Source: an uncultured Bacteroides sp.
Lineage (GTDB): Bacteria > Bacteroidota > Bacteroidia > Bacteroidales > Bacteroidaceae
Length of the DNA: 64,000 nucleotides
Direction of reading: 5' to 3'
Assembly: GCF_947632445.1 (NCBI RefSeq)
Contig: NZ_CANRPM010000001.1
Location: 86,519 to 150,518, forward strand
This document shows positions 32,749 to 35,195 of the stretch, in pieces. Position 1 is the stretch's first letter; the number at the start of each line of letters is the position of its first letter. The position numbers and the translations under genes were made by a program. Under the pieces are notes generated by a model that was not told the origin of the DNA, made no database searches, and worked only from the letters and a program-made list of their open reading frames with translations.

Positions 32749-32763
32749 CGTATCCGTAAAATA

Positions 32764-32856
32764 ATGCAGCGGTACGTGGACGAGTTCTGTTTCCAGCTCA
32801 ACCACAGGGATGAGGAAGAAGCGTTTAATTGTCTCGTGAATCTTGTAGTGAAATAA
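32764..32856 (+). pseudogene. C-terminal fragment of an IS1595/ISXO2-like transposase
   Basis: MQRYVDEFCFQLNHRDEEEAFNCLVNLVVK* resembles the conserved ISXO2-like C-terminus (QRYVDEFCFR.N.R). Confidence 0.6.
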
Positions 32857-32874
32857 CATTAAAAACGTAATAGA

Positions 32875-34055
32875 ATGAATACTAGTAAATTGCGAATAGG
32901 GGGGGGGGAACAAACAACTCCACCAAGCAAAAAAAGGAAAGAACGATGAGTTCTATACCCAGTTGACCGACATTGAAAACGAATTAGTCCATTACAAATC
33001 ATTCTTTCGCGGAAAAACTGTTCTCTGCAATTGTGACGACCCGCGCATTAGCAATTTTTTCAAATATTTCGCCCTCAGTTTTAACATCTTAGGACTGAAA
33101 CGAATCATTACGACCTGTTACAAGAATAATTGTCCCGACCTGTTTAGTCAGAACACTTCGGAGCAAGCAGTTTATCTGATTTACGACGGCAACGACGGAA
33201 AAAGTATGCCCGACTGGGACAAAGTGGACGTAAAGCCCCTGCATGGCGACGGGGATTTCCGCAGTGCCGAATGCATCGAACTATTGGAACAAGCCGATAT
33301 AGTAGTAACCAATCCGCCGTTTTCTTTGTTTCGTGAGTATGTAGCGCAGCTTATAGCCTACGACAAGAAATTTCTGATTATCGGCAATAAAAATGCGATT
33401 ACATACAAGGAAATATTCCCGCTTATAAAGGAAAACCGAATGTGGGTAGGATTCCAACCAATGAGTGTGGACATGTTATTTGATATACCCAAAGAGCAAC
33501 AGGAAGAATTGCTGAAAGATAGTAAAAATGGGAGCAAATATAGAATTGTCAATGGAGTGGTTAAAGGGAGGTCAGCGTCAATTTGGTTTACCAATCTTGA
33601 ACATAGCAAACGCAACGAAGAACTGATACTTTACAAGCGGTATAATCCTGAAGAATATCCAAAGTTCGACAATTACGATGCAATTAACGTTGATAAAGTA
33701 AATGAAATCCCCTGCGATTACTACGGAGTAATGGGTGTGCCGATTACTTTCCTTGACAAGTACAATCCTAAACAATTCGAGATAGTCGAATTTAGGAAAG
33801 GTACGGACGGAAAGGACCTTGTATATAGCACGCGGGGGGGGGGGCAGATTCAGCCTTACTTCAGAATACTCGTCCGTCGATGCCGATAGCTGGACTAATG
33901 AACAATCCGAAAGATACGGCAGTGGGTGGGTTGAGCAAGTACGCAAGAATTCTCATTCGACAACTGCCATAGCTGGAATGATAAAAAGTAATGAAGGAAT
34001 CATTGGAAACAGGATAACTTACGCCCGTGTATTGATTCGCAAAATTCAACACTAA
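32875..34055 (+). CDS. EcoRI-family adenine-specific DNA methyltransferase; coordinates span the reconstructed gene, interrupted here by two poly-G phase tracts
   Basis: NDEFYTQLTDIENELVHYKSFFRGKTVLCNCDDPRISNFFKYFA; catalytic DIVVTNPPFSLFREYV; open frame 32963-33889 as written, frame shifted relative to ATG 32875 and to the C-terminal extension ending at 34055. Confidence 0.85.
32899..32908 (+). repeat. Poly-G tract (G10) at the methyltransferase N-terminus
   Basis: GAATA-GGGGGGGGGG-AACAAAC read directly; 9 or 12 G would join ATG 32875 to the NDEFYTQ frame. Confidence 0.9.
33834..33844 (+). repeat. Poly-G tract (G11) near the methyltransferase C-terminus
   Basis: CACGC-GGGGGGGGGGG-CAGATT read directly; three possible downstream frames all open for 14, 42 or 69 codons. 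Confidence 0.9.
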
Positions 34056-34067
34056 ATCACAAATGAT

Positions 34068-35195
34068 ATGAAAATCGAACTGCACCAAATCTCAATCCGC
34101 GAACTCGTGGAGAGGTACAAAGACAATGATGAAGAGGGCATTGTCGGCTATGGCGGACGTTTGGATATACGTCCGAAATACCAGCGCAATTTCGTTTACG
34201 ACAGAGAGCAGGAAAAAGCCGTTATCGCCACCATACGCAAAGGCTTCCCGCTAAACGTCATGTATTGGGTAAAACGCGAAGACGGCACTTTTGAAGTGCT
34301 TGACGGTCAGCAGCGCATCTTGAGCATCTGCCACTATGTAAATAACGTGTTTGCCGTATATGACGAAAGGCTAAACGGAGAGTTCACATTCGACAATTAT
34401 GCAGACGATATTGAAGAAACCGAAAAATTTCTCGGATATGAACTGATGGTTTATTTCTGCGAGGGCAGTTATACCGAAAAACTCCAATGGTTTCGGACTA
34501 TCAACATCGCAGGATTGAAACTCACTGAACAAGAGTTGCTGAATGCGAACTATGCGAGCGAATGGCTGACCGACGCAAAACGATATTTCAGCAAGCGCGA
34601 TTGTGTCGCAACCAAAATAGGCAGCAAATATGCCAAACCTCGATACGATACGAACAGACAAGGGATGCTCGAACTCGCCTTACTATGGATGCACGACGGA
34701 AACTACAAAGGGTTAGAGAGTTATATGCGCAATATGGCAGCACAAAAAGTGACCAATGCAAAAGAGTTGTGGAACTATTTTCAAAGTGTAATTGATTGGA
34801 TTGAAGCGACGTTCCCGCACTACCGTCGTGAAATGTACGGAATCAATTGGAGCGAGTTATACAACAAATACAAAGACACTCTACTTGATACTGACGCACT
34901 TGAGCGCGAAATCACCACATTGATGGGCGACGACGAAATTACCAACAAAAAAGGCATCTACTACTATGTGCTGACAAGGGACGAAAGAAACCTCAACTTG
35001 CGGGCGTTCCCCGATAGTATCAAACGGGCGGTATATGAACGGCAGCACGGGATTTGCCCGATATGTGGAAAAGAGTACGACATTACTGAAATGGAGGGCG
35101 ACCATATTACCCCGTGGAGCGAGGGCGGAAAGACTGACATGGATAATTGTCAGATGCTATGCCGCAATTGCAATAGACGGAAATCGAACAAATAA
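34068..35195 (+). CDS. DUF262 (ParB/GmrS-like) + C-terminal HNH endonuclease, partner of the methyltransferase
   Basis: DUF262 motif FEVLDGQQRILSI; HNH CPICGKEYDITEMEGDHITPWSEGGKTDMDNCQMLCRNCNRRK; starts 12 bp after the frame-0 stop of the methyltransferase. Confidence 0.9.
   Translation: MKIELHQISIRELVERYKDNDEEGIVGYGGRLDIRPKYQRNFVYDREQEKAVIATIRKGFPLNVMYWVKREDGTFEVLDGQQRILSICHYVNNVFAVYDERLNGEFTFDNYADDIEETEKFLGYELMVYFCEGSYTEKLQWFRTINIAGLKLTEQELLNANYASEWLTDAKRYFSKRDCVATKIGSKYAKPRYDTNRQGMLELALLWMHDGNYKGLESYMRNMAAQKVTNAKELWNYFQSVIDWIEATFPHYRREMYGINWSELYNKYKDTLLDTDALEREITTLMGDDEITNKKGIYYYVLTRDERNLNLRAFPDSIKRAVYERQHGICPICGKEYDITEMEGDHITPWSEGGKTDMDNCQMLCRNCNRRKSNK

Follow-up and report, generated by a model that had tools for sequence, protein, structure and literature searches.

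Frame-staggered C-terminal modules behind a poly-G tract in an EcoRI-family adenine methyltransferase gene of an uncultured Bacteroides

The Methyltransferase Locus

The stretch of DNA analyzed here (64,000 nucleotides, referred to as the window) comes from an uncultured Bacteroides sp., a gut-type bacterium whose draft genome of 3.1 Mb in 137 contigs carries one copy of the methyltransferase gene described below. The gene product was assigned by profile search to the EcoRI family of adenine methyltransferases (PF13651, E=1e-129), and the match is full-length, scoring 433 bits against a gathering cut-off of 26.4. Another member of the family, M.EcoRI, methylates adenine in GAATTC. The start codon, an N-terminal tract and the body common to all forms of the protein, including the NPPF motif and the invariant columns, lie on the forward strand at 32875..33833.

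Two poly-G tracts interrupt the gene, a G10 near its start (32899..32908, forward strand) and a G11 near its end (33834..33844, forward strand). Translation from the ATG at 32875 through G10 is out of frame with the conserved reading frame of the body, which begins at 32909, and meets a stop after 24 codons; as assembled, the gene is therefore OFF, and it would be ON at G9 or G12. The first tract is best read as a separate ON/OFF control of the methyltransferase. Downstream on the same strand, at 34068..35195, lies a partner nuclease with a GmrSD-type N-terminal domain (DUF262, PF03235) and an HNH nuclease domain (PF01844). This combination is that expected of GmrSD-type (Type IV, modification-dependent) nucleases, but the best PADLOC match is a Type II restriction enzyme (REase_II), so that either mode of action is possible. 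Upstream, between topA and the methyltransferase gene, a short frame at 32760-32860 (RYVDEFCFQLNHRDEEEAFNCL...) resembles the end of a transposase, a resemblance noted without library comparison. The host genome (G000) as a whole holds about 34 distinct G/C runs of at least 9 nucleotides in 3.1 Mb, where about 17 would be expected from the base composition of the window; given this excess, further slippage-switched genes may exist.

Three C-Terminal Modules in Three Frames

An earlier note, made from the letters of the window alone, had proposed that the second tract selects among three tandem C-terminal cassettes in three reading frames. Recomputation reproduced its geometry exactly, namely the position of G11, the stops at 33889, 33972, and 34055 and the post-tract tails of 14, 42, and 69 residues, and likewise its map of tract lengths, by which G11 leads to module 1, G12 (or G9) to module 2, and G10 (or G13) to module 3. 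All three modules are on the forward strand. Module 1 (VEFRKGTDGKDLVYSTRGGGQIQPYFRILVRRCR, 33785..33889) is in frame as assembled and has a tail of the M.EcoRI type, module 2 (IAGLMNNPKDTAVGGLSKYARILIRQLP, 33886..33972) is read through a linker at 33845-33885, and module 3 (IAGMIKSNEGIIGNRITYARVLIRKIQH, 33969..34055) through a linker at 33845-33968; in a stretch at 33856..33889 all three frames are used at once. The three frames close, as had been claimed, with a common Y-x-R-I/V-L-I/V-R strand, which is the most conserved C-terminal feature of EcoRI-family methyltransferases. In its layout, with a non-triplet repeat close to the 3′ end that determines by its length which C-terminus is read, the arrangement conforms to what has been termed C-terminal phase variation.

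Other details of the proposed layout held only in part. The offset of 83 bp applies to both stop-to-stop distances, but from one YxR motif to the next the distances are 83 and then 80 nt. The stop of one module is indeed buried in ATAGCTGGA at both junctions of the window; this feature is nevertheless not conserved, as module 2 opens with ATAAGTGG in the arrays of Fibrobacter and of genome G1381. Modules 2 and 3 can be called homologous only in the broad sense of common start and end motifs, whereas in relatives each belongs to a tail type of its own (GLMNNPKDT... and GMIKN.EG..., respectively).

In the AlphaFold model of the window form (pLDDT 89.6) the final Y-x-R strand is predicted at residues 319-324. 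The model of a natural module-2 form from Riemerella (pLDDT 83.5) places the corresponding strand at 377-382 with a pLDDT of about 92, while residues 291-358 are mostly of low confidence except for a helix formed by the repeat. Both models are compatible with a linker that may be looped out and a terminal strand that may be replaced by that of the selected module, a fit that depends on the alignment and includes no DNA. A PDB sequence search for a solved relative returned none, and Foldseek gave only weak matches to ubiquitin E1 and RNA methyltransferases; since no solved DNA-bound relative was found, there was no basis for positioning the tail on DNA.

Staggered Arrays in Relatives

Scanning a single genome for each species yielded 80 relatives, and added draws at the level of relatives, class, phylum, order, and family brought the number above 200. 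Most have a single tail. Staggered modules in more than one frame occur at 10 loci including the window, and these span three phyla (Bacteroidota, Fibrobacterota, and Spirochaetota) and four repeat types (poly-G, poly-C, GA, and GAGAA), none with a unit that is a multiple of three. Staggered arrays lie behind G10 in Fibrobacter intestinalis (L018) and at L227/L231, behind G12 at L230, behind G9 in a member of the Rikenellaceae (L016, where the contig end cuts the third module), behind G7 in a member of the Bacteroidaceae (L046), and behind a GAGAA repeat of about 63 nt in Riemerella columbina (L040); two modules follow a GA repeat in a member of the Spirochaetales (L041) and poly-C tracts of C10 and C8 at L142 and L240, respectively. 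In the arrays of the window, Fibrobacter, and Riemerella successive YxR motifs lie 83 and 80 nt apart, and at L046 both gaps are 79 nt; none of these distances is divisible by three. At least two module frames were found in 10 of the 11 relatives with a 3′ repeat but in 0 of 211 without one (Fisher p=1.7e-16), and because a second frame with a module motif is absent from all of the latter, the layout is not attributable to chance. The homolog search that the earlier note had called for thus recovered several relatives with the same kind of three-module array, and the observation by which that note would have been refuted, homologs with a fixed single C-terminus and degraded downstream frames, was not made: at nine other loci the alternative frames are open and end in the motif.

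The array composed of FRKG, GLMNNPKDT, and GMIK..EG modules has been assembled in each of its three phases: the window and Fibrobacter have module 1 in frame, G1330 (L230, G12) has module 2, and G1381 (L231, G10) has module 3. Riemerella has modules 2 and 3 in common with this array, with GAGAA in place of poly-G and module 2 in frame. Across species the tract of such arrays is thus G10, G11, G12, or GAGAA, and the assembled phase differs; the invariant tract length that would have refuted the earlier note is therefore contradicted between species only. No read-level data underlie these phases, which constitute comparative evidence between species and not measured switching, and homopolymers in assemblies may be off by one base. 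In proteins that naturally carry module 2 or module 3, the match to the PF13651 profile runs over positions 1-344 of 345. A module of the type GLxNNPKDTxVNGKSKYARI occupies slot 2 in Fibrobacter and slot 3 in the Rikenellaceae array, still under purifying selection (dN 0.16 against saturated dS), and modules therefore move between slots. A search of viral contigs with a conserved 32-nt piece of array DNA gave no match.

Several other repeats in these genes were encountered. Two candidates for module arrays, A11 at a KKKK end in L140 and the G9/G10 tract that several relatives have at NWGGAMG, proved on examination not to be arrays. The latter tract, inside the conserved NWGGAMGVP, appears to be a second kind of switch in EcoRI-family methyltransferases, as G9 reads through (L050 at 4782, L152 at 2285, L154 at 1358, and L165 at 2282) and G10 frameshifts (L150/L172 at 2318 and L168 at 1366). 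Repeats also lie 5′ of the methyltransferase start in L095 (2872-2931, CGGCA x12, on a contig from a viral collection), L163 (958-1073, AGTCAGCC/TCAG), and L047 (3904-3930, TGCTCAG), where promoter or translational phase variation is possible. Separately, seven Bacteroidales loci (L178, L186, L189-L191, L195, and L196) have a shared-looking extension past the YxRIxIR strand (...AAEP...K).

Selection in Three Frames

Pairwise comparison of four arrays (window, Fibrobacter, G1381, and G1330) showed a step down in divergence with each further frame in use: 161/426 positions (37.8%) differ where one frame is coding, 104/525 (19.8%) where two are, and only 7/204 (3.4%) in the triple-coded stretch. 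The gene bodies of the same arrays are about 36-42% different, with synonymous sites nearly saturated. A recently transferred array was considered as the cause of the low divergence and rejected; constraint is the better explanation because the single-coded part diverges like the body and the gradient tracks the number of frames.

In the double-coded part pN/pS was 0.26 for the module-2 frame and 0.61 for the module-3 frame, compared with 1.36 for the terminated module-1 frame. Where one frame alone is coding, module 3 had a ratio of 0.34, compared with 0.91 and 1.19 for modules 2 and 1, respectively. The array pairs are mutually non-independent and the ratios are accordingly descriptive. As judged from them, the comparison shows purifying selection on each frame only up to its own stop (0.26-0.61 as against 0.91-1.36 beyond it). 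Absence of selection in the two downstream cassettes would also have counted against the earlier note, and it was not observed: the ratios in their own frames are those given above for module 2 (double-coded part) and module 3 (single-coded part), and frames past their stop are at about 1. Array pairs from Riemerella, Rikenellaceae, and Bacteroidaceae agree for modules 2 and 3, the weakest case being the PGYGYYHRAR type of module 2.

The Tail as a Putative Recognition Segment

Among single-tail relatives the block that follows QFEI is swapped as a whole, such that bodies 97-99% identical, among them L080/L129 (98.9%) and L026/L032 (98%), end in unrelated tails. Some tail types of the arrays also serve as sole tails elsewhere; this was found for module 1 (window against L023, score 103, shuffled maximum 58), for module 3 (Fibrobacter against L185, 83 against 58), and for the TESEGKG module (145 against 58). 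Against single-tail relatives module 2 of the window was marginal, and PGYGYYHRAR modules did not rise above the shuffled null.

The partner enzyme gives the strongest indication of a role in recognition. In an E. coli plasmid record R.EcoRI adjoins M.EcoRI, whose tail is of the FRKG type, as is module 1 of the window. This tail was found in 17/17 methyltransferases beside an R.EcoRI homolog and in 20/162 beside a GmrSD-HNH nuclease (p=6e-14). In body-identity bins of 0.6-0.9 the tail type was common to all 134 of 134 pairs of R.EcoRI partners, as against 2-13% of pairs of GmrSD partners; because R.EcoRI partners are always tail-matched and GmrSD partners rarely so, a fixed restriction target goes with a fixed tail. 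Enzymes partnered with R.EcoRI further have in common a central variable segment, SGFIVPxxYELYGTE, which the window lacks. It is therefore probable that recognition involves two parts of which the tail is one, a reading that draws on sequence comparison, and GAATTC is not predicted as the target of module 1. At L063 and L181 an EcoRI-like central segment and an EcoRI tail stand beside a GmrSD-HNH nuclease, an apparent exchange of restriction partner.

The C-terminal module accordingly behaves like a target-recognition segment, as far as can be judged without a methylome. The suggestion that the tail bears on specificity gains support from the natural swaps and from the single tail type of all R.EcoRI partners; methylated motifs have not been shown. 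In the sense that its alternative forms carry different candidate recognition segments, the locus qualifies as a candidate specificity-switching restriction-modification system, with three modules under apparent selection and a tail that tracks R.EcoRI partnership.

The Partner Nuclease

A GmrSD-HNH nuclease lies beside the methyltransferase in 139/200 fetched loci, and in the checked arrays with enough flanking sequence. It is mostly downstream of the methyltransferase, and upstream in Riemerella. No co-variation of the nuclease with the tail type, which would have supported matched specificity, was detected: at a given body identity the nuclease diverges to the same degree whether or not the tails match (0.87 in both cases at body identities of at least 0.9). 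The nuclease may lack a recognition sequence that corresponds to the tail; otherwise, what it has to match must be something other than the tail. A specificity set by the tail would have to be reconciled with this result. The intact nuclease of the window adjoins an out-of-frame methyltransferase, a combination that, by inference only, argues against a free-standing cutter of unmodified host DNA. The absence of co-variation and the OFF gene beside an intact nuclease together suggest a nuclease that may depend on modification or on the methyltransferase itself. For known relatives of the DUF262 fold (GmrSD, BrxU, and SspE) a link to DNA modification has been described (PMC12707154).

A Proposed Three-Way Switch and Its Alternatives

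The reading that we consider quite probable is that of a phase-variable Type II adenine methyltransferase in which slippage at the 3′ tract picks one of three frame-staggered recognition modules and the 5′ tract turns the gene ON or OFF. Slipped-strand mispairing at the 3′ repeat would select one of three tandem C-terminal modules, each presenting the same fold, closed by the conserved Y-x-R-I/V-x-I/V-R strand, with a different variable segment for target recognition. A single slip would then exchange the recognition module and not merely switch the gene OFF, and the separate 5′ tract would add ON/OFF control. The sequences demonstrate the layout, its recurrence with different repeats, selection in three frames, three phases among homologs, exchange of tails, and fixation of the tail beside R.EcoRI. 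Slippage in living populations, the production and activity of all three forms, and methylation of different sequences are inferred.

An unlikely but still serious alternative is that all modules recognize the same DNA sequence and vary instead in how active or stable they are, in their regulation, or in how well they withstand phage anti-restriction proteins; switching would then serve to tune activity or to evade immunity. The failure of the nuclease to co-vary with tail type and the lack of a methylome leave room for it. It does not readily account for the behavior of R.EcoRI partners, which have one fixed sequence to protect and keep one tail at a body divergence where other enzymes almost never share theirs, nor for the swapping of the tail as a block between near-identical bodies, as recognition domains are swapped.

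Long homopolymers can give slippage during expression, and slippage of the ribosome or of RNA polymerase on the repeat might then provide each cell with a mixture of the three forms without any genetic switching of length. Against this stand the similar array behind GAGAA in Riemerella and those behind GA or poly-C elsewhere, repeats typical of DNA slippage, and the difference in assembled phase between species, and we regard it as very improbable; programmed ribosomal frameshifting was likewise given little weight in view of the four repeat types.

That only one module works, the rest being relics of duplication left open by chance, can be practically discounted. Tandem duplication and decay are common, and at L091 (5060-5105), where there is no repeat tract, a possible relic of a second module (VNNQEIYARILICKMR) follows an intact single tail. 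Modules 2 and 3 of the arrays are nevertheless under purifying selection in their own frames, divergence is graded between triple-, double-, and single-coded parts, and genomes exist in which module 2 or module 3 is assembled in frame. Equally negligible is an artefact of assembly, in which tract length and frame would be sequencing errors in one draft genome, for although this draft has 137 contigs and homopolymers are error-prone, the same architecture recurs at 10 loci in three phyla with several repeat types.

The favored reading of recognition-module choice by slippage can be extended, if only tentatively and with the balance somewhat against it. The whole specificity of the restriction-modification pair may be rewritten by a one-base slip, the nuclease having no target of its own and reading the methylation set by the module, such that self and foreign would be redefined together, and arrays may pass between phyla as ready-made three-way switches.

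Relation to Known Systems and Significance

Slippage-driven phase variation is commonly viewed as an ON/OFF matter. C-terminal phase variation has itself been proposed in Helicobacter canadensis and Neisseria gonorrhoeae, where, as proposed for the window, the C-terminal residues depend on which of three frames slippage at a 3′ tract brings into use (PMC2823697; PMC5320596). In so far as the available parts of these reports describe them, those cases involve tails of arbitrary length or fusion to the next gene and not homologous functional modules, one per frame; they include no test of selection in all frames, and the genes are not EcoRI-family DNA methyltransferases (PMC2823697; PMC5320596). 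The Type I restriction-modification system NgoAV of N. gonorrhoeae changes its DNA specificity through poly-G slippage in hsdS, as the proposed switch would, but there a truncated hsdS product alternates with a full-length or fused one, with a contribution from an LEAT repeat and without stacked modules in three frames (PMC9577141; PMC6789123). Phase-variable shuffling of Type I hsdS resembles the window in that one of several specificity modules is expressed at a time, yet proceeds by inversion or recombination of separate copies and not by one-base slippage between overlapping frames (PMC4948785; PMC7394358). Type III mod phasevarions and the Type IIG enzyme Cj0031 carry a repeat tract in the methyltransferase gene, as does the window in its first tract, but are switched only ON or OFF with the recognition module fixed per allele (PMC5149525; PMC4889913). 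Finally, M.EcoRI and the single-tail relatives belong to the same PF13651 family and module 1 is of the M.EcoRI tail type; they differ in having one tail, no 3′ tract, and a central variable region unlike that of the window, and M.EcoRI is partnered with R.EcoRI.

A literature search for EcoRI-family methyltransferases with DUF262, or for three-frame C-termini in connection with methyltransferases, found none, which is weak evidence given that most subscription papers lay outside it. With that caveat, homologous modules in three frames and a multi-state choice of recognition module by slippage were not found described and are apparently new, C-terminal phase variation as such being known.

C-terminal phase variation has so far been described without evidence that each frame has a selected, functional end, which the arrays appear to supply. 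They also represent a rare, clean case of triple coding in which three overlapping frames are under selection, with a built-in control in the stepwise fall of divergence with frame number. The locus further raises the question of how a partner nuclease tolerates a methyltransferase that may change or be absent. For the EcoRI methylase family, of which no solved structure was found, the exchange of tails suggests that the C-terminal block helps to determine recognition.
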